DNA of 64,000 nucleotides from Sphingomonas caseinilytica (GTDB lineage: Bacteria > Pseudomonadota > Alphaproteobacteria > Sphingomonadales > Sphingomonadaceae), in assembly GCF_023516455.1 (NCBI RefSeq), contig NZ_JAMGBA010000002.1, positions 644,501 through 708,500 on the forward strand. The letters run 5' to 3'. Position 1 is the stretch's first letter. Every line of letters starts with the position of its first letter. Under the pieces are notes generated by a model that searched no databases, was not told the origin of the DNA, and saw nothing but the letters and a program-made list of their open reading frames with translations. A program made the position numbers and the translations under genes. Shown in pieces: positions 4,271 through 34,139 of the stretch.

Positions 4271-4672
4271 CTAGGCAGCGCCACGTTCGATATTGCGCTT
4301 CAGCGCGTCCGTCCCCTGCTGGACCAGCGGAAGCATCTGCTCGGCGAATTCATCCGGAAGGAAGTCCGCGATCCAGACGAATCGGCATCGCGCTTCACCC
4401 TCGGGTATCAATTGCATCGAGGCATTGTGATGCGTCATCGGTGTCCCGCTTATGACGGAATAGGCAAGGCGCCGCCGCTCATCGTTGATGTCGATAACGC
4501 GTTCGCGAACGACCATCCCGTTCGCGAAGGTTACGGTGCGGATGTCGCCATCGAGCCGTCCGTCAATCAGGACGTCAGCAAATAGCCGGTGAGCAAGGCT
4601 CACCTGCCGCAATGCCGACCAGGCACGATCCGCGCCTACATTGATGATCGTCTCATGCAGAAGGGAGGCCAT
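4271..4672 (-). CDS. SRPBCC-fold protein (polyketide cyclase/dehydrase-like)
   Basis: A 133-residue protein with the helix-grip pattern of SRPBCC proteins: an N-terminal strand with INVGADRAWSALRQVSLAHRLFADV, then GDIRTVTFANGMVVRERVIDINDERRRLAYSVI, and a C-terminal helix FLPDEFAEQMLPLVQQGTDALKRNIE. Such proteins bind a hydrophobic ligand or act as small cyclases or dehydratases, and neither can be read from the sequence. It is the last chromosomal gene before the tRNA-Thr remnant at 4813 and is probably core genome. It converges on the UrcA pair and their terminator. Ligand unknown. Confidence 0.75.
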   Translation of the reverse strand: MASLLHETIINVGADRAWSALRQVSLAHRLFADVLIDGRLDGDIRTVTFANGMVVRERVIDINDERRRLAYSVISGTPMTHHNASMQLIPEGEARCRFVWIADFLPDEFAEQMLPLVQQGTDALKRNIERGAA

Positions 4673-4812
4673 GCTCGACTCCGCGGAAAGAGGAATCTCC
4701 GGAAGAGCTTATCATTCGCCCGGTTTCAGTCTTCCGAGATTTGCCGCCCCTGCCGGTAGGGCAAGGGTGGCCAGTGGCCGCTGGATAGGCCGAGCAGGTG
4801 AACAATGTGAGG

Positions 4813-4857
4813 TGGTGCCGCTTAGGTGACTCGAACACCTGACCCCATCATTACGAA
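4813..4857 (-). repeat. Outermost tRNA-Thr(CGT) 3' fragment (attachment-site remnant)
   Basis: Forty-five nt from CCA back to the anticodon loop, matching the intact tRNA at 40 of 45 positions. All five differences are in the T-stem, which here is fully paired (AGGTG/CACCT). The rest of 4673-5070 holds no gene that I can support. Confidence 0.85.
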
Positions 4858-7019: not shown

Positions 7020-7709
7020 CTACTGGTTAGCGCTCCGTTCGGTGGGCGTTGCGACTGCGCTGATATGAGTAGAACCCCCAATCATCCCGGCCGCTTCGGT
7101 CAAATGAGCATCGGTTAACGCGCAGATCGATAATATGCGGCATGGCTCATCTCCAATGGCGATATAGGCGTGTCCCATCTCGCTATCGAAATAGACTGAA
7201 TCGCCCTTCTCCAGGCGCACCGGCGTGTACATATCGAGATGCAATTCGAGGGTTCCTTCGAGCACATAGACAAACTCCTCGCCCGCGTGCCGCATGAGTT
7301 CGTCATACTCTTCGATGCTCTTAGCAAAGACCTCTCCGACAATCGGAGTAATTCTCTTGTTCAGCAGTTCCGATGCCAGATAGAGAGAATTGCCCTTGGG
7401 ATTTTCGATCGACTGGCCATCTCCCGCACGGGCGACGCTACGGCGCGTCGCACTTTGGATTTTCGGCCCCTCTTTTGCTGTCGGGGAAATTAGCTCAGTC
7501 AAGTCGACGCTAAGGCCGTCGCTGATGCGTAAGAGTTTCTCGAGAGTCAGCGCCACCTTGCCATTTTCGATCTTCGACAAGGTCGAGACATTCATACCGG
7601 TCAAGTAACTGACATCTGCCAGGGTTAGGCCACGCTTTGCTCGCAAAGCCTTCAACGCCGCACCGGGGCGCGCTTGGACTTTACCTTTGTGGTCATCGCT
7701 AGCCATCAA
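7020..7709 (-). CDS. XRE-family regulator with C-terminal cupin domain
   Basis: A 229-residue protein. The helix-turn-helix is at about 17-71 (LKALRAKRGLTLADVSYLTGMNVSTLSKIENGKVALTLEKLLRISDGL), a linker spans 72-110, and a cupin_2 barrel at about 140-210 includes GEEFVYVLEGTLELHLDMY and LEKGDSVYFDSEMGHAY. This layout is common in repressors of amine and amino-acid catabolic genes in which the cupin senses a small ligand. It is co-oriented with, and 56 bp downstream of, the D-amino-acid dehydrogenase-like gene, so it probably regulates that gene and the divergent cluster that follows. The operator is not known; see the palindrome at 8955-8966. The ligand is inference. Confidence 0.85.
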   Translation of the reverse strand: MMASDDHKGKVQARPGAALKALRAKRGLTLADVSYLTGMNVSTLSKIENGKVALTLEKLLRISDGLSVDLTELISPTAKEGPKIQSATRRSVARAGDGQSIENPKGNSLYLASELLNKRITPIVGEVFAKSIEEYDELMRHAGEEFVYVLEGTLELHLDMYTPVRLEKGDSVYFDSEMGHAYIAIGDEPCRILSICALTDAHLTEAAGMIGGSTHISAVATPTERSANQ

Positions 7710-7765
7710 ATCTCCTATGACGCGAAACTAGTGTGCGCTGGTTGTCGGACCAAGGGTTTTCAATT

Positions 7766-8947
7766 TCAAAGAAAGTTTTTCCCTAGGGCGAGTTCTTGCT
7801 CGCTGGGCAAGCCCAACCTTTCAGGACTCATTTTTGAAACGTCGATCCCCAAATCGTGCAAGTCGTAGCCATCCGCTTTCCAGCTCGGGGATTCACTCAA
7901 AATCTGGCCGGCCGCGATCCTGCTCAAGGCCGGTGCGGTCTGAATCCCATAACCTCCAAGTGCAGCAAACCAGAAAAAGCTCGGTTGCAGGCGATCGAAA
8001 CCAATCACCGGCGACCTATCCTGGACGAATGACCTTAGGCCGGCCCATTTGCTAGCAATCCGCCTGACTTGAAGGGTTGTGGCCTGCTCCAGCCGATCAA
8101 CAGCTATGGCAATGTCGAGTTCGTCGGCTTGCGCGTCACATGGGTCCGTGAGGGTTTCATCGGCAGGCGAGAGTAGCAACATTCCGGCATCCGGCTTCAG
8201 ATAAAAATCCTCTTCCACGTTCACCAACATCGGCCAGTCGGCAGTATTGAGTCCGGTGGGTGCTTCGATCAAACAAGCCGTGCGTTTGAGCGGCTGGAGG
8301 CCGATATCCGTCGCCCCGGCGAGTAACCCAATTTCCCCCGCCCAGGCACCTGATGCGTTGACAATGATCTGTGCGCGGACTTCGGTATCCGCCATCCTTA
8401 TCCGCCAGCCCTGCGTATCTCGCTCTAGTCCGATGACCGGTGATGACATTGCGGCAATTCCGCCTCTCTGGCGGAAAAGGCGCAGATATCCCTGCTGAAG
8501 TTCATTGACATCTATATCCGCGGGACTGGTGGTCAGCGCCGCTCCAATCAGGACCTCCGGCCTGAGAATCGGACAAAGCGCCAATGCTTCTTTCAACGAT
8601 TGGAGTTCGACGTGACCGGCCTCTTTTGCAACCGCCACAAATTGATCAAACGCGCATTCTTGACCTTGGCGTGCGGTTAAAAGAACCCGCCGGGGCGTCA
8701 CCAAAGGGGCCGTCGCGAAGCCCAGCGGAGGTTTGTAAAAGAACTCGCGGCTCGCCCGTGTGAGTGCGCGGACCAACTCATTGCCATACGCCTCCGAAAA
8801 CACGGCAGCGGACCGGCCGGTCGAATGGTAGCCGGGATGGTCTTCCATCTCGAACAGCTGAACTTTCCTGTGTGCGGCTAGATGCGCGGCGATCGATGAG
8901 CCAGCAATACCGGCGCCGATAACGGCAATGTCCGGTTGGAATGTCAT
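7766..8947 (-). CDS. FAD-dependent D-amino-acid dehydrogenase, DauA-like
   Basis: A 393-residue FAD oxidoreductase of the DAO fold. The dinucleotide-binding GAGIAG is at residues 11-16, followed by the HPGYHSTGRSAAVFSEAYGN block that closely resembles D-arginine dehydrogenase (DauA) of Pseudomonas as I recall it. Further DauA-like stretches are DWPMLVNVEEDFYLKPDAGMLLLSPADE, the WAGLRSFVQDRSPVIG segment and GGYGIQTAPALSR. It would oxidise a D-amino acid to the 2-keto acid and ammonia, passing electrons to the respiratory chain. The start is the ATG at 8947, after GGTGGA; an upstream ATG at 9004 lacks a ribosome-binding site. It lies between the XRE-cupin gene and a divergent hydrolase. Substrate specificity cannot be read from the sequence. 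Confidence 0.85.
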   Translation of the reverse strand: MTFQPDIAVIGAGIAGSSIAAHLAAHRKVQLFEMEDHPGYHSTGRSAAVFSEAYGNELVRALTRASREFFYKPPLGFATAPLVTPRRVLLTARQGQECAFDQFVAVAKEAGHVELQSLKEALALCPILRPEVLIGAALTTSPADIDVNELQQGYLRLFRQRGGIAAMSSPVIGLERDTQGWRIRMADTEVRAQIIVNASGAWAGEIGLLAGATDIGLQPLKRTACLIEAPTGLNTADWPMLVNVEEDFYLKPDAGMLLLSPADETLTDPCDAQADELDIAIAVDRLEQATTLQVRRIASKWAGLRSFVQDRSPVIGFDRLQPSFFWFAALGGYGIQTAPALSRIAAGQILSESPSWKADGYDLHDLGIDVSKMSPERLGLPSEQELALGKNFL

Positions 8948-9258
8948 CAAGTTTCCACCGCGGTGGACCCGCAAGTATAAGGGCCATTCGGAATTGGCGT
9001 CCATATTGCAGGAGTATCGCTCCCGATTGGCAGACGCTGTTGGTCCACGAGATCAACAGAATTTCGATGGAGCAGCGGTGCAATGGAGCGATAGCTCGGC
9101 GGATTGGTGAATTGTGACACGTTGACTCGACAGCCCTCCGGAAAAAGCTTGTTCCTCGGGTGCGGGAAAATTTCAACAAAAATTGCTGGTTTAGAAAACT
9201 AATTGCGCGAAACGATATTCTAGTTAGATTTCTGCGGGTGATTAATTGGAAGAGATTG
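8948..9258. promoter_or_regulatory. Divergent intergenic region with a 12-bp perfect palindrome
   Basis: This 311-bp gap separates the divergent dehydrogenase and hydrolase genes, so it must hold at least two promoters. A perfect palindrome CCACCGCGGTGG sits at 8955-8966, 8 bp upstream of the dehydrogenase ATG. It is a candidate operator for the XRE-cupin protein, but it also supplies the Shine-Dalgarno, so it may act at translation. The right part (about 9165-9250) is AT-rich, as promoters in high-GC genomes often are. Confidence 0.45.
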
Positions 9259-10866
9259 ATGAAGCGCACTCAAGCAGATTTCTCGACGGCACTGGCCATT
9301 CTATTGACGTTCATTGCCGGTGCGCCGCCCGCGGTCGCGCAGGACATTCCGAGCCGCACGGCCGATGCCGCTCCCGCGGCTCCGATTGCCCCCGAGAAGA
9401 TCGACGACACCGTCGCGAGGGCGATGAAGGCGTTCAACGTTCCTGGCATGGCGGTAGCGATCGTCAAGGACGGCAAGCAACTCTTTGCCAAGGGGTATGG
9501 CGTCCGCCAAGCGGGGGCGGCCGGCCGCGTCGACGCAGAGACGATCTTCCAAATCGGTTCCAACACCAAGGCGGTCACCACTGCTGCTCTGGCTATTCTC
9601 GTGGACGAGGGGAAACTGCGTTGGGATGACAAGGTCATCGACCATCTCCCGCAATTCAGGATGTATGATCCCTACGTCACGCGCGAGTTTACCGTCCGCG
9701 ACCTTCTGACCCACCGCAGTGGCCTCGGCAAGGGTGCCGGGGATCTCATGTTCTTTCCTGCCACCGACATGAGCCGCGACGAGGTCATCCATGGTCTACG
9801 GTATCTTAAGCCGGTTTCGAGTTTCCGCGAGAAATTCGACTACGACAACCTGCTCTACCTGGTGGCAGGCCAGCTCATTCCAGCAGTGACCGGGCAATCA
9901 TGGGAAGATTTCGTGACCAAGCGCGTGTTTGCGCCACTCCAGATGACCGGATGCTCGGCTAGGTACGATCTCATCACGGACCGAAGCAATGTTGCTTCGC
10001 CGCATGTCGTGATTGACGGACAGGTCCAACCCATTCCCGTGGTGGACATGCGGGTGATCGGTCCGGCAGGTACAATCAACTGCAGCATTGCGGACATGTC
10101 CAAATGGCTCGCGGCTCAACTTGCTGGCGGCCTGGCGCCAAGCGGCCAACAGCTTTTCAGTGCCAAACGCGGCGAGGAAATGTGGGATGTTGTGACGCCG
10201 ACGCCGCTCAGCCCGATCCTTGCGGGCATGTATAATACGCATTTTTCCGGTTATGGCCTTGGCTGGGCCCTTAGCGATGCGCATGGATTCCGGCGCATCC
10301 ATCACACTGGCGGCGTCCTCGGCACCGTGACGTGGGTCAGTATGATCCCCGAACTCAATCTAGGCGTGCTGGTCTTTACCAATCAGCAGAACGAAGCAGC
10401 AATGGAAGCGGTGGGCGGCCAGATCCTGGATGCCTATTTGGGCGCAAAACCGAAGGATTGGGTTGCAATTGCCCAGGCCATGATGGCCCAACGCGCGGCG
10501 AGTGCTGCGAAAGTCGAGGCCGCGGCAGCAACAGTAGCGGCGAAAGCTGCACCGCCCTCCCTCCCGCTGGATGCCTATGCCGGAACCTATCATGATGCCT
10601 GGCGCGGCGACGCGACGGTCCGGCGCACCGGAAGCCAGCTTGTGCTAAAGTTTAGCCGAACCGCGAGCCTGGAGGGGTCGTTGACGCCTTACAACGGAAA
10701 CATCTTCATCGTTCGCTGGAATGACCGTAGTCTCGAGGCGGATGCCTTTGTCCGCTTCGAGCAGGGGTTCGACGGCAAAGTGACCGGCATGACCATGCGC
10801 GCGGTCTCGCCGGCCACCGACTTCAGTTTCGACTTCCAGGACTTGGACTTCAAAAAGAAGGACTAG
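9259..10866 (+). CDS. Secreted serine hydrolase, class C beta-lactamase / D-aminopeptidase family
   Basis: A 535-residue protein with a signal peptide (residues 1-28, ending AVAQ). The family S12 active-site motifs are present: SNTK at 101-104 (nucleophile Ser101), YDN at 195-197 and HTG at 349-351. A small beta-rich C-terminal domain (about 455-535, PLDAYAGTYHD onwards) resembles DUF3471. Relatives cleave D-amino-acid peptides or esters, or are penicillin-binding-like; it is unlikely to be a true resistance enzyme given this context. The start is taken at the ATG after GGAAGAG; a longer frame from 9160 would bury the signal peptide. Together with the divergent D-amino-acid dehydrogenase it may release D-residues in the periplasm (inference). 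Confidence 0.85.
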   Translation: MKRTQADFSTALAILLTFIAGAPPAVAQDIPSRTADAAPAAPIAPEKIDDTVARAMKAFNVPGMAVAIVKDGKQLFAKGYGVRQAGAAGRVDAETIFQIGSNTKAVTTAALAILVDEGKLRWDDKVIDHLPQFRMYDPYVTREFTVRDLLTHRSGLGKGAGDLMFFPATDMSRDEVIHGLRYLKPVSSFREKFDYDNLLYLVAGQLIPAVTGQSWEDFVTKRVFAPLQMTGCSARYDLITDRSNVASPHVVIDGQVQPIPVVDMRVIGPAGTINCSIADMSKWLAAQLAGGLAPSGQQLFSAKRGEEMWDVVTPTPLSPILAGMYNTHFSGYGLGWALSDAHGFRRIHHTGGVLGTVTWVSMIPELNLGVLVFTNQQNEAAMEAVGGQILDAYLGAKPKDWVAIAQAMMAQRAASAAKVEAAAATVAAKAAPPSLPLDAYAGTYHDAWRGDATVRRTGSQLVLKFSRTASLEGSLTPYNGNIFIVRWNDRSLEADAFVRFEQGFDGKVTGMTMRAVSPATDFSFDFQDLDFKKKD

Positions 10867-11040
10867 CCAGGTCCCGCTCGTCGACAAAGCTCCTGTTTCC
10901 CTAGCCGCGTCGACCAAAGCTGTTCGCGCTTCCGGTCAAACCGCTGGACGCATCGGCGGCCATCAAATTTCTTCGATCGAGAGGCCATGCCAGGTCAGGA
11001 CATCATTGGCCGCATAAAGCGTAGTGAAACTCTTTGCCGC

Positions 11041-11075
11041 TTGACAAGCAAATTTGTCCAGAACAGAAATAAAAG
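11041..11075 (+). promoter_or_regulatory. Possible promoter and operator upstream of the TonB receptor
   Basis: A perfect -35 hexamer TTGACA (11041-11046) is followed at long spacing (about 19 nt) by the AT-rich AAATAAAA. The inverted repeat GACAA-GCAAAT-TTGTC (11043-11058) overlaps the -35 box. No firm -10 box is visible, so this is tentative. Confidence 0.3.
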
Positions 11076-11122
11076 TCAGTTTTAGAAAAAAAATAGGCCA
11101 TGGCTCCCGGGGGAGGGGATAG

Positions 11123-13372
11123 ATGATGCGATTGTCACGATTTGGGTTCTTGATGGTGAGCGCCGCAACGTTAACCCTACTGCCTGGTCAGGCCTACGCT
11201 CAGACTGCAAGCGCGCCGGCAGAAACCGAGAATGCCGCCAAGCCTGACGATCAGGATGTCGCTCCGCCGGAAGACATCGTGGTGGTGGCAACTAAGCGGC
11301 CGGAGGCGGTCAGGGACATCTCAGGCTCGGTAACTGTGCAAACCGGCGAGCAGCTGGAAAAGCTGGGTGCCGACAGCATGGAAGACTATCTTACACGCAC
11401 ACCCGGCGTGGTCTTCAATGCTTCCACTCCCGGCCAAGGCAATGTGACCATTCGAGGCGTTTCCACCACAACCGGGTCAGAGGCTGGGCAGGCAACCACT
11501 GGTATCTTCATCAACGAAGTTCCGTTGACGGACCCTGCCTTTTCGCTTGGCACGCCTGACATCGATACTTTCGACGTCGACAATGTTGCGATTCTCCGCG
11601 GTCCTCAGGGCACATTGTTCGGTTCATCCTCGCTGGGCGGGGCCGTCAATTACCAGGCAGCCAAGCCGGATCTCGACCGCTGGGAAGCACATGGCCAGGC
11701 AACGCTCCGCGATACGCATGGTGGTGCCATGGGCGGCGCCGGCAAGATCATGCTCAACGCGCCGGTGGTCGACGGCAAACTCGGTATCAGGGGTGTCTTC
11801 GTCTATCGCGAGGACGGCGGATTTATTGACAATATCGGCACCGACAAAACCAACGTAAACCAAACAGTCACTAAAGGCGGTCGGATCCTCGTGACTTGGA
11901 AGCCTACTGATACCACCGACCTCAACTATCTTTATCTTGAGCAGCATCAAGACACCGACGATGATGGGTATCGGCAGGCCGACCTGGACGGCGGACTTCT
12001 GAAAAACACAGCTCTTTCCGAATTCTTCAAGCTCAAAACGCGCATTCATCAGTTGCGTGTCGACCAGGATCTTCCGATTGGAACGCTGACTGCAACTGCC
12101 ACGCGGCATAAAAAAAGCCGCAGCTTTGCGAGCGACTACAGTGTGGCCCTGAGCCCCGCCCTTTTTGGGCTCGCCCCTATTGCAAATTTTGGCGACGGGA
12201 CCAGCAAGGGTGACACGTTTGAAATACGGCTGGCTTCGGCCCCGGGGGGCAAATTCGACTACCTAATCGGCGCGATGTACGACGAAACGAAGATGAAGCA
12301 GGGACAGGAAATCATTGCCGTCGGCCTTGCTGATTTCCTTGACGTGTTTGGGCCATTCCTCGGACTGGATCCTAACATGGGCCAGCTGCTCGCTCCGAAC
12401 GACCTGCTGGTCAATGCCCAGTTTCCGGCCAAGGCAAGGGAAGTGGCGCTGTTTGGCGAGGGCTCATATCACTTCAGCGATCAGTGGAAGTTGACGTTGG
12501 GTGGTCGCTTGTTCGAACAGCGTTTGACCAATTCATCAGACGCATTCGGTACCTATGTACTGCTCACCGAAGGGACATATACGCTGTCCACCTCGGACAC
12601 GCGCAAATTTAACGGGTTCAGCCCAAAGGCGTCTGTTACCTGGACGCCTAACGACGATCTGATGGTTTATGCGCTGGCTTCCAAGGGCTACCGGTTCGGT
12701 GGCGCCAATCTGATCACGTTCGCGAACGTTCCAAAGTCCTTCGATAGCGATTCCCTTTGGAACTACGAGTTGGGTGCCCGCGCTGATCTATGGGACCGCA
12801 AACTGCTGCTCGATCTGACTGGCTTTTATGTTGATTGGACCGACATTCAGCTCAGGCGCCAGGCGTCTGGAGTCAATTTCGTCGATAATGCGGGGGATGC
12901 GCGGATCTTCGGCCTCGAAGCGAGTGCAACGTTGCGCCCGACCCGTGGCCTCAATCTTACTAGCAACGTCACCTACCTCGATGCGGAGCTGAGCAAGACG
13001 TTCGATCCCGATCCGTCGAATCCGACGGACACCGTTTTCCCGAAGGGAACGCGGCTGCCTGGCGCGGCCAAGTGGCAAATTTCCAATACCATTAGCTATG
13101 ATTTCGTAGACACGAAGTTTAACCCATCGATCCTGCTTTCGCATCGGTACATATCGAGCTCGCCAAGCCAGCTCGAGGCATCGACCAGCCAAGGCGGCTA
13201 CAGCCTGTTCGACGCGCGTGTAGGCGTCGACCTGGGCAAAGTTGGTGCCACACTGTTTGCTGAGAACATCAGCGACAAGCGCGGCGTTTCGACCAGTGTA
13301 GATAGTCCGCCAGTCCAGGAATATGTTGTCCGTCCCCGGACTGTCGGCGTGACATTCGACGTCAAGATCTAG
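11123..13372 (+). CDS. TonB-dependent outer-membrane receptor
   Basis: A 749-residue protein. It has a signal peptide (1-27, ending AYAQ), a TonB-box-like EDIVVVATKRPE (about 52-63), a plug domain (about 65-175, with TPGVVFNAS, NVTIRGVST, LRGPQGTLFGSSSLGGAVNY) and a long beta-barrel ending in RPRTVGVTFDVKI with a near-terminal aromatic, as expected for outer-membrane proteins. It takes up a ligand using proton-motive force through TonB-ExbBD, which is not in the window. GGGGAGGGGA sits just before the ATG. No siderophore or cobalamin genes are nearby; the neighbours suggest a peptide or amino-acid-containing ligand (inference). A hairpin follows its stop. Confidence 0.92.
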   Translation: MMRLSRFGFLMVSAATLTLLPGQAYAQTASAPAETENAAKPDDQDVAPPEDIVVVATKRPEAVRDISGSVTVQTGEQLEKLGADSMEDYLTRTPGVVFNASTPGQGNVTIRGVSTTTGSEAGQATTGIFINEVPLTDPAFSLGTPDIDTFDVDNVAILRGPQGTLFGSSSLGGAVNYQAAKPDLDRWEAHGQATLRDTHGGAMGGAGKIMLNAPVVDGKLGIRGVFVYREDGGFIDNIGTDKTNVNQTVTKGGRILVTWKPTDTTDLNYLYLEQHQDTDDDGYRQADLDGGLLKNTALSEFFKLKTRIHQLRVDQDLPIGTLTATATRHKKSRSFASDYSVALSPALFGLAPIANFGDGTSKGDTFEIRLASAPGGKFDYLIGAMYDETKMKQGQEIIAVGLADFLDVFGPFLGLDPNMGQLLAPNDLLVNAQFPAKAREVALFGEGSYHFSDQWKLTLGGRLFEQRLTNSSDAFGTYVLLTEGTYTLSTSDTRKFNGFSPKASVTWTPNDDLMVYALASKGYRFGGANLITFANVPKSFDSDSLWNYELGARADLWDRKLLLDLTGFYVDWTDIQLRRQASGVNFVDNAGDARIFGLEASATLRPTRGLNLTSNVTYLDAELSKTFDPDPSNPTDTVFPKGTRLPGAAKWQISNTISYDFVDTKFNPSILLSHRYISSSPSQLEASTSQGGYSLFDARVGVDLGKVGATLFAENISDKRGVSTSVDSPPVQEYVVRPRTVGVTFDVKI

Positions 13373-13381
13373 CTACATGGG

Positions 13382-13404
13382 GGTCCAGCCCGTCTGGCTG
13401 GACC
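13382..13404 (+). terminator. Hairpin after the TonB receptor gene
   Basis: A perfect 9-bp stem GGTCCAGCC / GGCTGGACC with a CGTCT loop lies 10 bp past the stop codon. No T-tract follows, so it may only stabilise the 3' end. Confidence 0.5.
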
Positions 13405-13585
13405 GCCACTCTTAACGTCCGTGAGCTAGCTCAGCTCGGAACCTGACAGAAGGACATCGTACATGCGGCAAACAGACCATGGCGCCCTCAAGCCAAGTGT
13501 GCCGGCGAATGGATTGATCGGTAATTCTCTCGCTAGCATGTCCTTCGATCAGGAATTCCGCGCGAAGCCGGGGCAGGAGAAAATC

Positions 13586-14665
13586 ATGCGCCGCCGGTTC
13601 GCCAGAATGATCGCCGGCTTGGCCGCCGCCACGGTTCTGGCAATCTCACCGGCGAATGCGCAACAATCCGTTCCGCAGACCACCACAATCGCGCCCCTCG
13701 TCGATCATCACGTTCATCTCGGAAGCGCCGCCCTGAGCGATCAGGTGGACGAAATGCAAAAGTTGGATCCATCTGCGTTTGAGCATCTATCCAAGGACAT
13801 TTTCAGCAGGCCAACACCGGCCGACGCCATCCATATCCTGGACGAAGCAGGCGTGAAGCGGGCCGTGCTCATTTCGACGGCCTACTTTTTCATGCTAACG
13901 CCTGATCCCGCGGAAGCGGCGCGCAAGATGCGTGAGGAAAACAGGTTCATCGTCGATACAGCGCTGTCCTCGAACGGGCGGCTGATTGCCTTCATTGCCG
14001 TCAACCCATTGGCTGCAAACGCCCGCGAAGAGCTCAAATACTGGGCAGGCAAGCCTGGCGTTAGCGGCATCAAGCTTCATTTGGGGGCGGCCGGCTTCAA
14101 GGCGAGCTCGCCCGAGCAGGTCGCCAAGTTGGCGACGTTCTTCACAGCGGCACAGGAAGCACATTTACCGCTACTCGTGCATCTTCGTGGTGGCGGCGCT
14201 TTTCCCAAGGCGGAAGTCGAGACCTTCATCGATAAGGTACTGTCCCAGGCGGGCGACCTTCCTGTCCAGATCGCCCATGGTGGCGGCTATGCGGGTGCGG
14301 ATCCCGCGACGATTGGATCGCTTGAGGCCTTTGACGAGGCGATCGCGCGCAAGGCTCCGGGCACCAAGAATCTGGTGTTCGACATTTCCGGGGTGGTTTT
14401 GCCGGAGGAAACGGCGAAGGCGCTCGGCAGTAGTGACGAGCAGCTGAAGACCTTTGTCGGGTTGATGCGCAAGATTGGAATCGAACGGTTCGTGATCGGT
14501 AGCGATTGGCCGGCTATCGGTCGCATCGCACCTTATTTCGCACTGATGCGCGAAAAGCTTCCGGTTACCGACGCCGAATGGGCGCAGCTCTGCAACAATC
14601 TTGCGCCGTATCTGAAGGCCACCGTCGCGAGCCCATCCCAAACCAACCTCCCAAGTAGTCATTGA
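13586..14665 (+). CDS. Exported amidohydrolase-2 family hydrolase
   Basis: A 359-residue TIM-barrel hydrolase. A Tat- or Sec-type signal peptide is at 1-27 (MRRRFARMIAGLAAATVLAISPANAQ). The metal-binding HxH is in LVDHHVHLG (about 40-48), further ligands are likely the His in LPLLVHLRGG and QIAHGGGY, and the catalytic Asp is in VIGSDWPAIGR. It hydrolyses or decarboxylates a small substrate in the periplasm; specificity is not evident. The start at 13586 follows AGGAGA 6 nt upstream and gives a proper signal peptide; an upstream ATG at 13463 would add 41 unlikely residues. It is followed after 11 bp by the dehydrogenase gene, so the two probably form an operon. Confidence 0.8.
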   Translation: MRRRFARMIAGLAAATVLAISPANAQQSVPQTTTIAPLVDHHVHLGSAALSDQVDEMQKLDPSAFEHLSKDIFSRPTPADAIHILDEAGVKRAVLISTAYFFMLTPDPAEAARKMREENRFIVDTALSSNGRLIAFIAVNPLAANAREELKYWAGKPGVSGIKLHLGAAGFKASSPEQVAKLATFFTAAQEAHLPLLVHLRGGGAFPKAEVETFIDKVLSQAGDLPVQIAHGGGYAGADPATIGSLEAFDEAIARKAPGTKNLVFDISGVVLPEETAKALGSSDEQLKTFVGLMRKIGIERFVIGSDWPAIGRIAPYFALMREKLPVTDAEWAQLCNNLAPYLKATVASPSQTNLPSSH

Positions 14666-14676
14666 GGGGAGGGTGG

Positions 14677-15792
14677 ATGCCAGTTTGGAACTCACGAGAA
14701 TTCGATGATCACGAGCAAGTTTGCTTTTTCTCTGATGCGGCGACTGGGTTGCGCGCCGTAGTTGCAATCCACTCAACGGCACTTGGTCCAGCTGCCGGTG
14801 GCACACGGTTCAAGCATTATGAGCATGACCAGCTTGCGTTGGACGATGCCCTCCGGCTCTCGAAGGCGATGTCTTACAAGTCGGCGTTGGCTGGCCTGCC
14901 TCTCGGCGGTGGGAAAGCGATTATCATCGGCGAGCCGACCAAGTTGAAAAACCGCCCACTCCTCCATGCCTTTGGCCGCTATATCGATCGGATTGGCCGG
15001 TATTTTGCGACAGGAGAGGACGTCGGCATGTCGGTCGCCGACATTGATACCGTCCATGAGGTGACGCCGTTCGTCGGTGGCACGTCGGCGGGAACAGGCG
15101 ATCCGTCAATTTATACTGCGATCGGAGTCATTCACGGTCTTCGTGCCGTAATGCAGCGTCAGTTTGACAGATCTGACTTCGATGGTGTGCGAATTGCAAT
15201 CCAAGGTCTGGGCGCCGTTGGCTGGGGTGTCGCCGAGCGGCTGCATCAGGCCGGAGCCAGGCTGGTTGTTGCCGATATTCGAGACGAGAAAGTTCGGGAG
15301 GCAGTCAATCGATTTGGCGCAGAAGCTTCGGACACGGCCGGAGTCCATGCAGCAGATGTCGACGTCTTTATGCCTTGTGCGCTGGGTGGGATTATCACCG
15401 AGCGCAGCGCGGGGGAGATTTCGGCCCGGGCCGTCGCAGGTGCCGCGAATAATCAGCTCGCTACGCCAGCCGCTGGTGACGCCCTGGCACGTCGCAGCAT
15501 CCTCTTTGCACCCGATTATGTAATCAATGCCGGCGGCATCATAAGCGGGCTGGAAGCTTTGGCCGATATGCCCGGTCGGATACGGCCTGCACTGGGACCC
15601 CTGGAAGAACGTCTTGCTGCTATTCATCAACGCTTGGCGAGCATATTTGAGCGCTCATCCAGGGACGGAACTACGCCGGAGGTAACCGCGGAGATTATGG
15701 CGCGCGAACTTATTACGCGCGCGGGATTGTCAGGGGCACGTCCTTCGGACGACTCTGTGTCGACCGTTGGAATGACCTCTAGCGTCAACTGA
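14677..15792 (+). CDS. Leu/Phe/Glu/Val-type amino-acid dehydrogenase
   Basis: A 371-residue NAD-dependent dehydrogenase of the leucine/phenylalanine dehydrogenase family. The N-terminal catalytic domain has ALGPAAGGTRF, the lysine motif LPLGGGKAIIIGEP with the substrate-binding Lys, and TGEDVGMSVADID. The Rossmann domain has IQGLGAVGWGVAERL, and the conserved PDYVINAGGIISG follows. It interconverts an L-amino acid and its 2-keto acid. In this cluster it could aminate the keto acid made by the D-amino-acid dehydrogenase, turning a D- into an L-amino acid (inference). The ATG at 14677 follows AGGGGAGGG; the upstream TTG frame overlaps the previous gene and is rejected. The next gene starts 11 bp later. 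Confidence 0.88.
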   Translation: MPVWNSREFDDHEQVCFFSDAATGLRAVVAIHSTALGPAAGGTRFKHYEHDQLALDDALRLSKAMSYKSALAGLPLGGGKAIIIGEPTKLKNRPLLHAFGRYIDRIGRYFATGEDVGMSVADIDTVHEVTPFVGGTSAGTGDPSIYTAIGVIHGLRAVMQRQFDRSDFDGVRIAIQGLGAVGWGVAERLHQAGARLVVADIRDEKVREAVNRFGAEASDTAGVHAADVDVFMPCALGGIITERSAGEISARAVAGAANNQLATPAAGDALARRSILFAPDYVINAGGIISGLEALADMPGRIRPALGPLEERLAAIHQRLASIFERSSRDGTTPEVTAEIMARELITRAGLSGARPSDDSVSTVGMTSSVN

Positions 15793-15802
15793 GGGGGCGA
15801 AC

Positions 15803-16693
15803 ATGCTGGCTGCTCTTCTGGTTCCGATCATCATCGCGAGCCTGTTTTACTGCGGCATCTTGATCCGTGCAGCCATTCAACGTGGCGCGGTTCCGGACAT
15901 TGAGGCAGTGGCCCTGGGCGCAATCACCAATTTCTTCGACACGCTTGGGATCGGGTCCTTCGCGCCCACAACGGCATGGCTTAAGTTCCGGGGCATGGTT
16001 GCCGACCGGCTCATTCCCTGCACGATGATCGTCGGGCATACCCCGCCGGCAATGTTGCAGGGGATCATCTTTTTGATCCTGCTTGGGGTGTTCGTCGATC
16101 CCGTCTTGCTGGTCGGGTGCGTCATTGCATTGCTGATCGGGGGACTGGTTGGGGCTCCGCTCGTCGCAGTGGTGCGCACCTGGATCATTCAGCTAGTTGT
16201 CGCTTTGGCCCTGGTAATTGCAGCTGTGCTTTATGTGATGGCAAACCTGGACCTTATGCCCGGCGGCGGGACAGCGACGTCGCTGCCACTGTCACTGATG
16301 ATCGTTGCCATCCTTGCGAATTTCGCATTTGGGGTTCTCCTAAATTTTGGCATTGGCAACTACGCGCCGACGCTGGTCATGCTCAGCCTGATGGGCATGG
16401 ACCCGCGGCTCTGCTTTCCAATTATGGCCGGCGGTGCCGCCCTTGCCGGAGCAGCAGCTAGCAGTCGGCATGTTTTTATCGGGGAGGTAGATTTGCGCAT
16501 TGCGACGGGTATTGCGCTTGGGGGCATTCCCGCTGTCCTTGTAGCGGCCTTCATTGTGCAAAGCATGCCGGTTGAAATGCTCCGTTGGTTGGTGATCATC
16601 GTCGTTCTTTATGCAGCGGCAGTTATGCTGAAATCCGCTGCTGCCGGGCGTCGAAATGAAAGGTCCGATCCGGCCCTTGCCGCCGCGGAATGA
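15803..16693 (+). CDS. TauE/SafE family membrane permease
   Basis: A 296-residue polytopic protein with about eight transmembrane helices and the duplicated TauE/SafE pattern: VALGAITNFFDTLGIGSFAPTTAWLKF in the first half and FAFGVLLNFGIGNYAPTLVMLSLMGMDPRLCFPIMAGG in the second. Family members export sulfite or organic anions, or take up small carboxylates. Here it is the last gene of the putative D-amino-acid cluster and starts 11 bp after the amino-acid dehydrogenase, so it may carry the substrate or a product such as a keto acid. The direction of transport is unknown. The gene ends shortly before an Hsp70 fragment, so the cluster's right border is near 16.7 kb. Confidence 0.85.
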   Translation: MLAALLVPIIIASLFYCGILIRAAIQRGAVPDIEAVALGAITNFFDTLGIGSFAPTTAWLKFRGMVADRLIPCTMIVGHTPPAMLQGIIFLILLGVFVDPVLLVGCVIALLIGGLVGAPLVAVVRTWIIQLVVALALVIAAVLYVMANLDLMPGGGTATSLPLSLMIVAILANFAFGVLLNFGIGNYAPTLVMLSLMGMDPRLCFPIMAGGAALAGAAASSRHVFIGEVDLRIATGIALGGIPAVLVAAFIVQSMPVEMLRWLVIIVVLYAAAVMLKSAAAGRRNERSDPALAAAE

Positions 16694-16771
16694 CTTCCGT
16701 CGGAACCTCACTGTAAGATGGTCGATGCAAGCGCCGGCGTTTGACTTCTACGGAGGGCAGCAATCCGATTT

Positions 16772-17078
16772 TCTGCCTTCGATCATTGCGCTCGTTTATG
16801 ACCTCGGCGGTGGTACGTTTGACGTAGCTCTCGTGAAAATCACTGAGGGCGAGCTGACGGTGGTTGATCACGAGGGGGACAATTACCTGGGCGGCTCGGA
16901 CTTCGATGCGCTGGTCGTCGAGATGTTGATCGTTCCGGAGATTTGTCGACGGGGCTCATTTTCCAATCTTCTTCAGCAAATGAAGAGTGAAAAGGGAAAG
17001 TATAATGCCCTCTGGTATCGCCTGCTTCATGCTGCTGAGATGGCGAAGGTAGAGTTGTCTACTAAAACGTCGGCCAGA
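16772..17078 (+). pseudogene. Hsp70-family ATPase fragment
   Basis: About 100 residues of an Hsp70-type nucleotide-binding domain can be read: VYDLGGGTFDVALVKI (the phosphate-2 loop), GDNYLGGSDFDALVVEMLI, and AAEMAKVELSTKTSA. Both the N-terminal phosphate-1 region and the rest of the protein are missing, and similarity stops near 17078 where the reading frame enters the 3' end of an opposing gene. It is therefore a remnant truncated on both sides, not a chaperone. The frame continues upstream to 16656 but that part is not Hsp70-like. The right break may mark where a mobile element carrying the integrase inserted or recombined. Confidence 0.75.
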
Positions 17079-17353
17079 CTATATCTGCCCTCGCCATCTA
17101 GTCGCCATCGGTGGCGCGCCGGGGCCCCGCCGGTGCCTTCGTTCAAGATGATCGCGACGTGGCGGTAGTCGAGCCCGATGCTTTTGAGTGCCCCGATGAT
17201 TTGGGCTCGGGTCGCAACACCTTCCTCTATGCATGCCCTTATCAGAACGATCGCGACGGCGTGCTTGTCTTTCGGCCAGCCACAAGCTGATTTCAGCCCG
17301 CGGAGACGTTCGAGAAATTCGCTCGATGGGCCACCCTCATGATCATTGGTCAT
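17027..17353 (-). CDS. Small mobile-element protein of unknown function
   Basis: A 108-residue protein with helical segments (SSEFLERLRGLKSACGWPKDKHAVAIVLIRACIEEGVATRAQIIGALKSIGLDYRHVAIILNEG) that could form a small winged or helix-turn-helix fold. The C-terminal 15-17 residues are read through the antisense of the Hsp70 fragment, so the original C-terminus has probably been replaced. The start at 17353 follows AGGAAGG; a longer frame from 17413 starts in a low-complexity A/T run. It lies downstream of the integrase on the same strand. I do not recognise the family. Confidence 0.5.
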   Translation of the reverse strand: MTNDHEGGPSSEFLERLRGLKSACGWPKDKHAVAIVLIRACIEEGVATRAQIIGALKSIGLDYRHVAIILNEGTGGAPARHRWRLDGEGRYSLADVLVDNSTFAISAA

Positions 17354-17462: not shown

Positions 17463-18620
17463 CTAAAGGCTAGCCATCTTCGCCGCTCCCGCCTCGACGG
17501 CGGCCAGCAAGCTTTCCTGGGTGAGGAAAGAGTACCTTTCGCTACTTTTCAGGTCGCGATGTCCGAGTAACTTGGACACCATGAAGAGCGAGGCGCCTGA
17601 GTTCACCAACCCGGAAGCGCAATGATGCCGGAGATCGTGAACCCGCAGGCCAGGTAAATGCGCCTCTCTCCTGGCCGTCTGCCAGGCTCTCTTAATGCTC
17701 ACAAAAGGCTTTCGCGTCTCTGGGTTCGGGACAAGGTAAGGACAGCCCTCGAACCGCTGCAGGGCCTTGATGACTGTGACCGCGGCACTGGCGAGCGGCA
17801 CGTGTCGTCCCTCACCATTTTTGGAGATCAAGATGTGCCAGGTCCTGCGCTCGAGATCGAATTGCTCCCAACGGCTGTGCAGCAGCTCGGACACGCGGGC
17901 GCCGGTCAGCATAAGCAAATGGATAATGGGCCTTAGCTGCGGGTTGGGTGAGCGTCCCGCGGCGACGAGGAGCCGCTCGACCTCGTCTGTCGACAGGTAC
18001 CGGCTTCTTCGGTTGTCGAAGGCGGGTCTGCGAACGGCTCGGACTGGGTTGCTTTCCCCGCCCGGCAGTTGCCACTCCCCAGCAAGTGCGAAGCTCTTGC
18101 CCATGACGACACGGATTTTCTCTGCCGTCGCCGGCTTGAGGCCTTCGGCCGCCGCCTTCTCAGCCAGCCATTTCGCGATGTCTTGAGATTTGATCTCGTC
18201 GAGCCGCATCCGGCCCCAACGTGGCAACAGGTGCTTTCGGATGATGCCCTCGGTGCTCCACCACGACCGTTGGTAGGTCTTCGCGTGGGCGATGTGCTGC
18301 TCCGCGAGCGAACCGTAAGTCGGAACGGCGCGCTTTGTCCGTTTGGTGGCCAGGGGATCGCCGCCTAGGACGACTTCGGAGCGCAGGCGCTTGGCGGCCT
18401 TCTGGGCCTCGGCGAACGTCGCGTCATTGAAGCCGGCGATGCGGCTCTGACGCTGGCGGCCCGACTGATCGAAGTAGCGGAGGTAGTATGTTTTCCCGCC
18501 GCTCCCGCGGACCTCCAGCACGAAGCCGGTTGTGATCGTATCCCAGTAATCGATCTTACGCTTGCCAGCTGGGCACGCGGCCGTGAGGCAGAAGGTGGCA
18601 TCGAGTTTAACTTTCGGCAT
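17463..18620 (-). CDS. Tyrosine-type site-specific integrase (P4-like)
   Basis: A 385-residue phage integrase. The N-terminal DUF4102-like domain (about 1-95: DTITTGFVLEVRGSGGKTYYLRYFDQSGRQRQSRIAG) and SAM-like core-binding domain (about 100-190) precede the catalytic domain with Arg242 (TGARVSELLHSRW), HDLRH at 328-332, His354 (LLGHRDLKSSERYS) and the nucleophile Tyr363. All catalytic residues are intact, so it may be active. The start follows AAGGAGA; an upstream frame to 18785 adds an unlikely N-terminus. P4-like integrases often target tRNA 3' ends, yet this one lies 9-12 kb from any tRNA-like sequence in the window. Whether it uses the tRNA-Thr site or the tRNA fragment at 25053 is unknown. 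Confidence 0.92.
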   Translation of the reverse strand: MPKVKLDATFCLTAACPAGKRKIDYWDTITTGFVLEVRGSGGKTYYLRYFDQSGRQRQSRIAGFNDATFAEAQKAAKRLRSEVVLGGDPLATKRTKRAVPTYGSLAEQHIAHAKTYQRSWWSTEGIIRKHLLPRWGRMRLDEIKSQDIAKWLAEKAAAEGLKPATAEKIRVVMGKSFALAGEWQLPGGESNPVRAVRRPAFDNRRSRYLSTDEVERLLVAAGRSPNPQLRPIIHLLMLTGARVSELLHSRWEQFDLERRTWHILISKNGEGRHVPLASAAVTVIKALQRFEGCPYLVPNPETRKPFVSIKRAWQTARREAHLPGLRVHDLRHHCASGLVNSGASLFMVSKLLGHRDLKSSERYSFLTQESLLAAVEAGAAKMASL

Positions 18621-18792
18621 GGGTAGTCTCCTTGAATCAGTTGACGGATGCCGCTCGCGCCAAGGCGAGCGACGGGTCCTGTTCGGTTGATGTGAAGTGA
18701 TGCCCGGCGCGGGCAGGTGGGCAGTTTTTGGGCAACGCAAAACGGAAAGCCGTTGCGTTTCAAGGCAGTAGCCACCGGTAGACACCGAGGGC

Positions 18793-24104: not shown

Positions 24105-24213
24105 CGTCATCTCCGTTAGTAACCCGAATGGCACTCACGTAGAGAACAGAGCGAGCATATCAACATCGGCCGCCTGACCGCGTCGATGCGGAGCGACGTC
24201 AATGTAGACGCGT

Positions 24214-27227: not shown

Positions 27228-27341
27228 CTGCCGACCGCTGACGCCAACGCGTCCCAAACCTTACCCAAGCGCGAGGCACGCGTTTTAGGCACTTTGCGCA
27301 GGATGTCGTGGGACTGCCTTCTGAAAGGCACATAAAGAAGG

Positions 27342-27386
27342 TGGTGCCGCTTGGGGGACTCGAACCCACGACCCCATCATTACGAA
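27342..27386 (-). repeat. tRNA-Thr(CGT) 3' fragment between units A and B
   Basis: Identical over 45 nt to the 3' end of the intact tRNA-Thr at 34064-34108. About 75 bp after it resemble the 75 bp after the next fragment (32099-32175). The gap 27148-27490 otherwise holds only repeat copy 3. Confidence 0.9.
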
Positions 27387-27490
27387 ACTCATTGTTGTTT
27401 AAGTGCTTTCACAAGCTGCCGGCCGGTGTGAGCTTCTGAACGATCATTGGCAAGGCAGCGACAAATTTACTCAGCCAAAGCAGCTTTGGG

Positions 27491-27907
27491 TCACTTCACT
27501 AATAAGAAGACCGCAAGGATGGCGACGCTTGAGATGATCGACGTTGTCCATCCCATGGCTTTCGAGTGGCTCCACCCAGACGCCGCAATTGCGACTAAGA
27601 GACCAATTATTCCGATCGAGAAACTGATGCCCAGGAGAGGCCGGATTGCTGTGGTCGAACGTGCGGCGGTAGCAAGCGGCGCATCGGGGTGCGCAATTGC
27701 GACCAAGGCGCTCGAAGCCATCACTGCGACGATGAACGACACGGCGGCGACCGCCGATCCATGAGCGGCGACCAACGAGCCGCGCGATTTTCCCCCGACC
27801 GTGAGAAACAGCGCAAGCATCGTCGCAGCAAATCCTCCGAAGAAGGCGCTAACCGACCCCAGTTGCGTCGCAAGTGCCGTTAGATAGTCAGGATTTAGCG
27901 GCGTCAT
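27491..27907 (-). CDS. Four-helix membrane protein, function unknown
   Basis: A 138-residue protein with four predicted transmembrane segments (about 17-38, 50-72, 90-112 and 115-137) and almost no soluble part. The start follows AAGGGGA 9 nt upstream and replaces a longer frame from 27946. I do not recognise a family. It is the first gene of unit B, facing back toward the tRNA-Thr fragment. Confidence 0.6.
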   Translation of the reverse strand: MTPLNPDYLTALATQLGSVSAFFGGFAATMLALFLTVGGKSRGSLVAAHGSAVAAVSFIVAVMASSALVAIAHPDAPLATAARSTTAIRPLLGISFSIGIIGLLVAIAASGWSHSKAMGWTTSIISSVAILAVFLLVK

Positions 27908-27993
27908 GCCGTAGTCCCCTTCCTTGCTGAGCAACAAAGGTGCCACAGCATGCGCTGCGCTCAGCGGTTACGGGAGCGTAACAGACAGGCGCC

Positions 27994-28024
27994 TGTCTGC
28001 AATGGGTGGAAAGCGGTCATTACC
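27994..28024. repeat. Island palindromic repeat, copy 4
   Basis: TGTCTGCAATGGGTGGAAAGCGGTCATTAC, opposite in sense to copy 2. It lies between the four-helix protein gene and the DUF5985-like genes. Confidence 0.65.
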
Positions 28025-28062
28025 AAAGCCAGTCCGCGCCACCATCGTATGGTCTGGATACG

Positions 28063-30423: not shown

Positions 30424-30445
30424 ATGACCGAGAAGCATCGACGCC

Positions 30446-30476: not shown

Positions 30477-30521
30477 GGAGCAAGGCCTCGACCAAAGGAA
30501 AACGTCTAGCTACGCTCGGGC

Positions 30522-32285: not shown

Positions 32286-33725
32286 ATGCGTGTGACCCCG
32301 GGGAGGGAGAGCGCGGTGGCGATCGAGGAGATTGAGGCTGGTCCCGAGCCGCTTGTAGCGAGACCCAGGCTCGAGTTCCTTGGGCATCCCGTCGGCCTTC
32401 CCGTCATCGCCTTCACCGAAGCGTTCGAACGTTTCTCCTATTACGGCATGCAGACGCTGCTCGTGCTCTACATGGTTAAGGCGCTGCTGCTCCCGGGCCA
32501 TGTCGAGAATATCGCGGGGTTTGGCTGGTTCACCGCCGGGTTGAGCTGGATCTACGGGGCGCCGCCGACGACGCAGGCGCTGGCTTCGCACATTTTCGGC
32601 ACCTACACCGCACTGGTCTATTTCACGCCGATCTTCGGTGGCCTCGTTGCCGACGCCTGGCTCGGCAAGACGAGGACGGTCACGCTCGGCGCGCTGTTGA
32701 TGGCCGCCGGGCATTTCCTGATGGCGTTCGACGCATCGTTCCTGGTCGCACTGCTTTTGCTGGTGCTCGGGGTGGGGTGCCTCAAGGGCAATCTGGCCAG
32801 CCAGGTCGGCGCTCTCTACCCTCCCGGCGACGGCCGCGCGACCGACGCCTACCAGCTCTATTATATCGGCATCAGCGCGGGCGCCTTCTTCGCTCCGCTG
32901 GTTTGCGGATTTCTGGGCGAAGAGATCGACTGGCACTGGGGGTTCGGCGCCGCGGGAGTGGGCATGGTAATCGGCCTGGCGATCTACCTGTTCGGGCGCC
33001 ACCACCTGCCGCCGGAGCCGCGCCTGCTCCGCTCCGCCGCTGCGCAGCCGGTGCCGGCGATGACCCGGCGCGACTGGCAGGTCCTGATCCTGCTGGTCCT
33101 GCTGATCCCCGTGCTGGCGATGAGCGCACTCGGCAACCAGCAGATGTTCAACGCCTACCTGGTCTGGGCCGACCGGTCTTACGAGTTCATGATGTTCGGC
33201 CATCGCATGCCGACATCGTTCCTGGTGTCGTTCGATGCCGCGACGGGCGTGCTCACGCTGGCCGGAGCAGTGGCGTTCTGGCGCTGGTATGCGGGCCGCT
33301 GGCGGGAGCCCGACGATCTGACCAAGTTGATCATCGGCTGCCTGATCTCGTCATCCGGTTTCATCCTGGTGACGATCGTCGCCAGCCATCACGCCGCGAC
33401 CGGCGCGCGGCCCAGCCTGTGGATCGCCCTTTTGGTCAACACGCTCAACAATCTCGGCTTCGCCAATGTTTTTCCTGTCAGCCTTGCCCTCTATTCGCGA
33501 GCGGCCCCGCGGGCGATCACCGGGACCGTGATCGGCATCTATTACCTCTTCCTTTTCCTTGCCAACATCCTCGTCGGGATCGTCGGCGGGTGGCTCGACA
33601 TCATGCCGGCGGGGCAATTCTGGGGTATCCATGTCGCGGCCATCCTCAGCGCGGCAGCGATTTTCCTGGGCGTCAAGCTCCTGTTCGGCCGCCTGCTGCT
33701 GCAGCAACCTGGGCCGCAGTCGTAA
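32286..33725 (+). CDS. POT/PTR2-family proton-coupled oligopeptide transporter
   Basis: A 479-residue protein with about 12-14 helices. The family ExxERFxYY motif is EAFERFSYYG (about 46-55), and the conserved GGLVADAWLGKTRTVTLGA and FANVFPVSLALYSRAAPRA segments are present. It imports di- and tripeptides with protons. It is the only gene of unit C, and is flanked by palindromic repeats and tRNA-Thr fragments, so this module is one transporter plus its attachment sequences. GGGGAGGGAGA begins 14 nt inside the frame, which suggests that translation could start at the GTG at 32316 instead; I keep the longer ATG start. Peptide uptake would suit the D-peptide cluster in unit A. Confidence 0.9.
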   Translation: MRVTPGRESAVAIEEIEAGPEPLVARPRLEFLGHPVGLPVIAFTEAFERFSYYGMQTLLVLYMVKALLLPGHVENIAGFGWFTAGLSWIYGAPPTTQALASHIFGTYTALVYFTPIFGGLVADAWLGKTRTVTLGALLMAAGHFLMAFDASFLVALLLLVLGVGCLKGNLASQVGALYPPGDGRATDAYQLYYIGISAGAFFAPLVCGFLGEEIDWHWGFGAAGVGMVIGLAIYLFGRHHLPPEPRLLRSAAAQPVPAMTRRDWQVLILLVLLIPVLAMSALGNQQMFNAYLVWADRSYEFMMFGHRMPTSFLVSFDAATGVLTLAGAVAFWRWYAGRWREPDDLTKLIIGCLISSSGFILVTIVASHHAATGARPSLWIALLVNTLNNLGFANVFPVSLALYSRAAPRAITGTVIGIYYLFLFLANILVGIVGGWLDIMPAGQFWGIHVAAILSAAAIFLGVKLLFGRLLLQQPGPQS

Positions 33726-34063: not shown

Positions 34064-34139
34064 TGGTGCCGCTTGGGGGACTCGAACCCACGACCCCATC
34101 ATTACGAATGATGTGCTCTACCAGCTGAGCTAAAGCGGC
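34064..34139 (-). tRNA. tRNA-Thr (anticodon CGT), island attachment site
   Basis: A 76-nt tRNA with encoded CCA. The acceptor GCCGCTT/AAGCGGC, D-arm GCTC/GAGC and anticodon stem CATCA/TGATG are paired, and loop TTCGTAA gives anticodon CGT. In the T-stem GTGGG/CCCCC, position 50-64 is a T-C mismatch, which the outermost remnant (4813) lacks. Its 3' 45 nt recur three times as island borders. Confidence 0.95.

Follow-up and report, generated by a model that had tools for sequence, protein, structure and literature searches.

The question raised by positions 7020-16693 of a 64,000-nt stretch of Sphingomonas caseinilytica DNA (contig NZ_JAMGBA010000002.1; the whole stretch is called the window below) is what a serine hydrolase, a TonB-dependent receptor and two amino acid dehydrogenases accomplish together in one gene cluster. 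A first-pass annotation had described seven contiguous genes here and read them as a system for the utilization of D-amino acids or D-peptides. All seven predicted open reading frames were confirmed in this interval, each where it had been placed, and a Pfam/NCBIfam scan of the seven proteins identified an XRE-type helix-turn-helix (HTH) protein with a cupin domain, a DAO-type FAD enzyme, an S12 beta-lactamase-like protein with a DUF3471 domain, a TonB receptor, an Amidohydro_2 protein, an ELFV dehydrogenase and a TauE-like protein. We conclude, with a probability of about 0.72, that the cluster is an island-borne module, controlled by the XRE-cupin regulator, for the use of peptides with D-amino acids of the neutral hydrophobic or aromatic type, whichever direction its last step takes. 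Comparison genomes and loci are referred to below by our handles, G and L, respectively.

Predicted substrate class of the two dehydrogenases

The best relatives of the FAD enzyme in the PDB are structures of DauA (3nyc, E-value 1.4e-86, and a second at 8.9e-86, against 3.8e-9 for the next family), and the homology is full-length, with residues 23-397/412 aligned. Five of the seven DauA active-site residues listed in the accessible part of PMC11193025 are present (Y53, R222, E246, Y249 and R305), whereas H48 and E87 are both replaced by Val. R222, Y249 and R305 were invariant in all 31 aligned rows, three of which are self rows and several of which represent the same gene in overlapping loci. 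These three residues serve in carboxylate binding and catalysis. The position of E87 was acidic in none of the 28 non-self rows (some again being the same gene in overlapping loci). Because the arginine-binding Glu87 is replaced by Val, neutral hydrophobic D-amino acids are likelier substrates than D-arginine, and we infer a substrate class of neutral hydrophobic or aromatic D-amino acids. The pair of guanidinium-contacting residues that strictly defines a D-arginine dehydrogenase is represented by E246 only, with Val for E87, and D-arginine was dropped as the main substrate. The D-amino acid or D-peptide utilization of the first-pass annotation is well supported by sequence and gene neighbourhoods, D-arginine being less likely than hydrophobic D-amino acids. 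ThiO, sarcosine oxidase-type and MnmC identities were also tried for the FAD enzyme, and all scored far under their cut-offs.

An FAD-type enzyme was matched in 193 of 199 genomes of the family, and the FAD gene alone means little because such enzymes are so widespread. In a tree of 25 rows, from which the three self rows and four rows repeating a gene from a longer locus were omitted, the window enzyme groups with that of L134 (100/99) and then with that of L107 (99/97), both of which are linked to the regulator. The six regulator-linked enzymes were not resolved as a single clade in this tree; the fork that holds them (87/91) includes L110.

The second dehydrogenase contains both ELFV domains by Pfam and the equivalents of K68 and K80, and is probably NAD(H)-dependent; an Asp at the NAD site is a mark of NAD use. 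Its loci were compared among the best 80 of 211 relatives, which comprise a near subfamily of eight at 58-68% identity (L008 and L009 coming from one metagenome-assembled genome, and several loci being short) and 72 ordinary enzymes below 50%. According to the accessible text of PMC2723916, substrate specificity in leucine dehydrogenase involves L40, A113, V291 and V294, with positions 113 and 291 conserved in leucine dehydrogenases and mutated in phenylalanine dehydrogenases. At these four positions A, G, I and G are found in the window enzyme, which thus does not show the leucine dehydrogenase pocket. Phenylalanine dehydrogenases have Gly at the position of A113. Gly was present there in all eight near loci, while the other 80 rows had Ala in 74 cases, Gly in five and a gap in one; Ala at position 40 and Ile at 291 are frequent among ordinary ELFV enzymes as well. 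The pocket is changed and probably enlarged, and its residues predict bulkier, possibly aromatic substrates. An identity as ScyB tryptophan dehydrogenase was rejected, the NCBIfam score being 299.4 bits against an equivalog cut-off of 600.

Gene neighbourhoods of the XRE-cupin regulator

The presence of an XRE-cupin regulator distinguishes the near loci from the ordinary ones (6/8 versus 0/72). The window regulator has the HTH and cupin architecture of XRE-cupin local repressors, which, as described in PMC7901475, repress adjacent uptake and metabolic genes; in Pseudomonas, PsdR controls a dipeptidase as well as the uptake of peptides. A profile built from seven regulators gave 88 hits at E <=1e-20 in 64 of the 396 genomes of the order. 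From the 58 strongest, the window's own apart, came 55 stretches 3.3-20 kb long, including one of the S. caseinilytica genome itself, and the 30 weaker hits were left out; neighbouring genes were counted at E <=1e-20, with the 72 ordinary-dehydrogenase loci as the control.

A TonB receptor accompanied the regulator in 45 of the 55 loci, an S12 protein in 44, a DgcA-like protein in 43, an L7x transporter in 37 and a DgcN-like protein in 36, followed by D-acylase-like proteins (21), POT transporters (19) and M19 dipeptidases (17). Keto-acid oxidoreductases of the IOR family and MlrC proteins were found in two loci each, and the window-type amidohydrolase in none. At least one of DgcN, DgcA, D-acylase and the FAD enzyme was encoded in 47/55 regulator loci compared to 1/72 control loci, in which DgcN and DgcA occurred once each, the TonB receptor twice, S12 proteins never and IOR seven times. 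These counts show, at the level of sequence, that this type of regulator is linked to D-amino acid genes. A membrane-like protein of ~380-410 aa with a GGGYATGRE stretch (e.g., in L007, L013, L134 and L172) occurs in 37/55 regulator loci and is a candidate amino acid transporter family; the two members scanned (L007 and L172) gave no Pfam/NCBIfam match.

The same neighbourhoods bear on a narrower role, in which the cluster would serve a particular natural product with D-residues, a nonribosomal or linear peptide, in the manner of the mlr genes for microcystin, instead of general scavenging. L109 and L135 each encode an MlrC-like protein directly beside the FAD enzyme, and L108 has one in the same cluster, with the regulator and the receptor in all three (micro_ase_MlrC scored 345 bits with L109, under its cut-off of 999), and M19 dipeptidases and S12 proteins recur in the regulator loci. 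None of the seven window genes matches an MlrC family, and the substrate cannot be read from the sequence; we regard this narrower role as improbable. As an observation on the MlrC-like proteins themselves, their clustering with DauA-like FAD enzymes (L108, L109, L135) hints at action on D-residue peptides.

Several points weigh against a module for D-residue peptides. The FAD gene was found in 2/55 regulator loci and the near dehydrogenase in 2/55, and the two occurred together in 0/55. The 55 loci are not independent, because many are orthologous clusters, and L134, L145, L155 and L166 supplied queries and so match themselves. The best NCBIfam hits were under their cut-offs for DgcN (447/480) and DgcA (369 and 314/400, and 356/400 for the DgcA of the S. 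caseinilytica genome). The S12 protein gave only a weak match to the NCBIfam D-aminopeptidase, an identity rejected at 52.8 of 443 bits, and the S12 protein is also encoded on a Xanthomonas sacchari plasmid, with no D-amino acid genes nearby. The amidohydrolase and the TauE-like protein are without an assigned pathway step. Finally, the near-subfamily loci encode IOR-family enzymes (L007, 1468 bits; L014) and a TPP-dependent enzyme (L013), besides DUF885 proteins, an alpha/beta hydrolase and amino acid permeases; an IOR or TPP-dependent enzyme in 3/8 of them suggests deamination of L-amino acids there.

Fate of the 2-oxo acid

In the proposed route, the TonB receptor would import the peptide, and the S12 hydrolase, probably periplasmic, would free D-residues from it. 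A permease, perhaps the POT symporter encoded elsewhere on the island, would take in small peptides or amino acids, and the DauA-like enzyme would oxidize D-amino acids, giving 2-oxo acids. Interconversion of the 2-oxo acid and the L-amino acid would fall to the ELFV dehydrogenase, reductive amination to the L-form being the direction most useful here. The regulator would repress its own and the divergent operon until the substrate is sensed.

Gene content of the S. caseinilytica genome is relevant to the last metabolic step. Neither the fused IOR family nor PF02423 (OCD/mu-crystallin), the family of DauB, is matched in it, and the partner enzyme expected of a dauBAR operon was not found. HPD is encoded (430 bits, above cut-off), together with a PhhA-like protein just below its cut-off (251.9 of 264.75 bits), and HGO and FAH, both above cut-off, lie just outside the island, so that L-Phe and L-Tyr could be degraded once formed. 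Along with the missing IOR and PF02423 matches, this favours reductive amination here without proving it; a second ELFV enzyme encoded elsewhere in the genome could take part in the task. The re-amination proposed in the first-pass annotation is possible on these grounds, while the three near loci mentioned above point to L-amino acid oxidation. Inversion from the D-form through the keto acid to the L-form is plausible, and we consider it about equal in likelihood to a convergent catabolism that involves no inversion.

Under convergent catabolism, mixed D/L hydrophobic peptides would be consumed. One and the same 2-oxo acid would arise by oxidation from the D-residues, through the FAD enzyme, and from the L-residues, through the ELFV enzyme. 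It would then be removed by housekeeping metabolism (HPD in the case of the tyrosine keto acid, or a branched-chain keto-acid dehydrogenase) or by export through the TauE-like protein. The same keto-acid oxidoreductase accompanies each of the two dehydrogenases in relatives, the near ELFV enzyme in L007 and L014 and the FAD enzyme in L107 and L134; it is also found in the 7/72 ordinary ELFV loci counted above, and HPD is available in the genome. Conversely, the missing match to fused IOR speaks against this scheme, as does a second ELFV dehydrogenase (44% identical) already encoded elsewhere in the genome. With these arguments on either side, convergent catabolism may well apply but falls short of being the expected outcome.

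If inversion does take place, the cluster may be a mobile module that inverts hydrophobic and aromatic amino acids from D to L with two dehydrogenases, in which a neutral-pocket DauA-like enzyme and an enlarged-pocket ELFV enzyme replace the DgcN/DgcA pair used for acidic D-amino acids in sister clusters. Each side-chain class would then have an inversion module of its own in this genome, the second of them carried on a transferable island. We put this forward tentatively.

Cluster layout, genomic island and known systems

The features of the locus are collected in Table 1. Start codons were read from the frames and from alignment with relatives, the likely positions being 7706 for the regulator, 8947 for the FAD enzyme, 9259 for the S12 protein, 13586 for the amidohydrolase and 14677 for the dehydrogenase. 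The FAD and regulator genes likely form one leftward operon. Rightward lie the S12, receptor, amidohydrolase, dehydrogenase and permease genes, the gaps among the last three being 10-11 bp given these starts. The 311-bp divergent gap would be a natural control region, and from this layout we infer that the cluster genes are co-regulated. A search for operators in the divergent region and in the gaps before the receptor and before the regulator returned short inverted repeats or matches, or nothing, none of them convincing.

Table 1. Features of the seven-gene cluster and of the island that carries it (window positions)
Feature	Position	Strand	Evidence
XRE-cupin transcriptional regulator	7020..7709	-	HTH_3 and Cupin_2; aligned with relatives; likely ATG at 7706
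DauA-like FAD D-amino acid dehydrogenase; probable substrates neutral and hydrophobic	7766..8947	-	Best PDB relatives DauA; active-site residues
Divergent region between FAD/regulator and S12 units; probable regulator target	8948..9258		Gene layout
S12 serine hydrolase, probably exported; probable D-residue peptidase	9259..10866	+	Beta-lactamase and DUF3471 domains; 74% homologue in closest cluster
TonB-dependent receptor, probable outer-membrane importer	11123..13372	+	Plug and barrel domains; 54% identical receptor in G327
Amidohydro_2 protein, ACMSD/decarboxylase fold group, probably exported	13586..14665	+	Pfam; structure model and fold matches
ELFV-type L-amino acid dehydrogenase, probably NAD(H)-dependent, changed pocket	14677..15792	+	Pfam, NCBIfam; residues at leucine dehydrogenase positions
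TauE/SafE-like membrane protein	15803..16693	+	Pfam, just below gathering score
tRNA-Thr(CGT), island insertion site	34064..34139	-	ARAGORN; same tRNA in 6/6 same-genus loci inspected
Tyrosine integrase of island	17463..18785	-	Phage_integrase and arm-binding domains
Far-end attachment repeat; may keep ancestral tRNA-Thr 3' end	4810..4857		48-nt repeat of tRNA-Thr 3' end
POT-family oligopeptide:H+ symporter, same composite island	32286..33725	+	TIGR00924 above cut-off

The S12 protein carries the motifs SNTK, YDN and HTG, in agreement with the SxxK/YxN/HTG pattern reported for it before, and is probably exported and a probable D-residue peptidase. Identities as class C beta-lactamase (81.5 versus 415 bits) and as AmpH (89.4 of 266 bits) were rejected. 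The G327 gene for the similar receptor lies near XRE-cupin and keto-acid oxidoreductase genes, and a TonB receptor adjoining a D-aminoacylase gene was noted earlier (accessible part of PMC3400609). The TauE-like protein scored 31.6 bits against a Pfam gathering score of 32.6. It is possible that the POT symporter acts as the inner-membrane peptide importer for the cluster.

The amidohydrolase has a signal-like N-terminus, and eight relatives all share H43, H45, H166, H200, H232 and D308 with it; in the amidohydrolase superfamily such residues serve as metal ligands. Homologues (E <=1e-10) were found in 6 of the 396 genomes of the order, S. caseinilytica included, and no PDB sequence matched up to E 0.1. 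The structure model (pLDDT 87.8) matched the folds of decarboxylases, ACMSD, LigJ and LigY with Z 20.3-23.8, and because these matches are so close together in Z, a function does not follow from the fold. A role for this protein in releasing D-residues found no support, its fold group being rich in decarboxylases.

The island of the first-pass annotation was verified by the integrase, by tRNA 3'-end repeats at both ends and by an unoccupied site in a relative: the cluster is part of a tRNA-integrated genomic island. Copies of the 3' end of tRNA-Thr(CGT), 48 nt long, lie at 4810, 27339, 32051 and 34061, the first being 90% identical to the others. Over 45 nt in G246 and 46 nt in G212, the 4810 copy is 100% identical to the tRNA-Thr, against 89% and 86%, respectively, for the 27339 copy, and this identity fits integration with a displaced ancestral 3' end as far as those two genomes are concerned; in G145, G234, G223 and G249 both copies match the tRNA-Thr about equally. 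In G223, one of the six same-genus genomes inspected, both flanks are joined at the tRNA without an island, in the order of the gene that in the window flanks the tRNA on the right, tRNA, UrcA2, FAH and HGO, with 90 bp between the tRNA end and the UrcA2 match; neither UrcA1 nor the small gene at 4271-4672 of the window had a match at that locus. A distance of ~4.8 kb separates the tRNA from a UrcA-like match in G246, and the left flank was unmatched within the stretches fetched for G212, G145, G234 and G249. A DNA search of 71 same-genus genomes, including that of S. caseinilytica, with up to four candidates scored per genome, recovered the whole block only from S. caseinilytica, and 56 other genomes gave partial matches, most of which involved the genes for the permease, the S12 protein and the dehydrogenase.

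Two further tRNA-Thr 3'-end copies (27339-34108) divide the island into a segment with a CitMHS/DASS-type transporter and NhaA and a segment with the POT transporter; the extra attachment copies possibly reflect tandem integrations. Related repeats of 26-33 nt occur in both orientations in the outer island (5045, 6739, 27990, 28987, 29013, 30443, 32206 and 33748), which we read as a single family. A frame at 16656-17168, between permease and integrase, matches the inner part of Hsp70/DnaK and is probably a fragment, and at 22884-24134 a HEPN/RES-domain protein, possibly of toxin or defence type, stands beside an HNH protein. To the left of the island, ~1.8 kb from the end repeat, homogentisate 1,2-dioxygenase and fumarylacetoacetase are encoded at 302-2961. 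In G212 (L155, L202), a DgcN-type cluster adjoins the same tRNA-Thr, its S12 gene being ~1.9 kb away.

With such a composite island, carrying several attachment copies, the seven genes might be unrelated cargo brought together by chance, and the exact set was absent from every other locus examined. Against this, the regulator, S12 protein and receptor, with the FAD enzyme in fewer loci, recur jointly in other genera, and only 10-11 bp separate the genes for the amidohydrolase, the dehydrogenase and the permease; chance assembly is very improbable. The cluster is a variation of a gene neighbourhood common in related bacteria. The closest related cluster belongs to G327, a genome of the same order but a different family, and encodes an S12 protein (74% identical), a second S12 protein, DUF819, DgcA-like and D-acylase-like proteins, a TonB receptor, an XRE-cupin regulator (58%), a transporter, IOR and an FAD enzyme (56%). 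Another G327 locus combines an ELFV enzyme (33%) with IOR, an amidohydrolase, the 54% identical receptor, an alpha/beta hydrolase and a regulator. The window cluster looks to us like a mix of both kinds without IOR.

A second XRE-cupin cluster of S. caseinilytica (L166, contig C4, 5-18.5 kb) encodes DgcN-, DgcA- and D-acylase-like proteins, two S12 proteins, a POT transporter and a TonB receptor. A Sphingobium yanoikuyae plasmid (L200) is annotated with consecutive genes for an XRE regulator, a serine hydrolase, a dipeptide epimerase, a TonB receptor, DUF1611, a hypothetical protein, a serine hydrolase and a dipeptidase. The window cluster has the regulator type, S12 hydrolases and TonB receptor in common with these Sphingomonadales clusters, whereas DgcN, DgcA and D-acylase are all missing from its seven genes, which contain the DauA-like and ELFV dehydrogenase pair instead. 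PMC12363236 names dgcN as the key gene of an irreversible racemization pathway that acts on acidic D-amino acids as well as on the amides of these, and PMC10845958 has DgcN-DgcA converting D-Glu to L-Glu. The regulator-receptor-S12 neighbourhood of many Sphingomonadales may be tied to D-amino acid use, as a recycling route for cell-wall and nonribosomal peptide material, and such clusters may exchange stereo-inverting enzymes according to side chain. An inverting cluster would be a natural counterpart of biocatalytic multi-enzyme deracemization cascades, and its residue-level predictions are testable. In the open-licence literature, we found no paper joining D-amino acid dehydrogenase, TonB-dependent uptake and Sphingomonas, and none on a matching combination with leucine, phenylalanine or tryptophan dehydrogenase; the accessible parts of PMC7431475 and PMC3400609 gave no sign of the window cluster.

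The window regulator resembles the PsdR-type XRE-cupin repressors of Pseudomonas in domain architecture, a likeness of sequence alone. With the leucine, phenylalanine and tryptophan dehydrogenases (PDB 6acf, 1c1d and 5b37), the window enzyme has in common the ELFV domains and the K68/K80 equivalents, and it differs at all four pocket positions (A, G, I and G for L40, A113, V291 and V294). The two-enzyme conversion of D-Arg to L-Arg by DauA and L-arginine dehydrogenase of P. aeruginosa (accessible part of PMC11193025) follows the same logic of inversion, pairing a DauA homologue with an L-amino acid dehydrogenase. The window cluster departs from that pair in its ELFV-family partner, in the replacement of both E87 and H48 of DauA by Val, and in its added genes for peptide import and hydrolysis.

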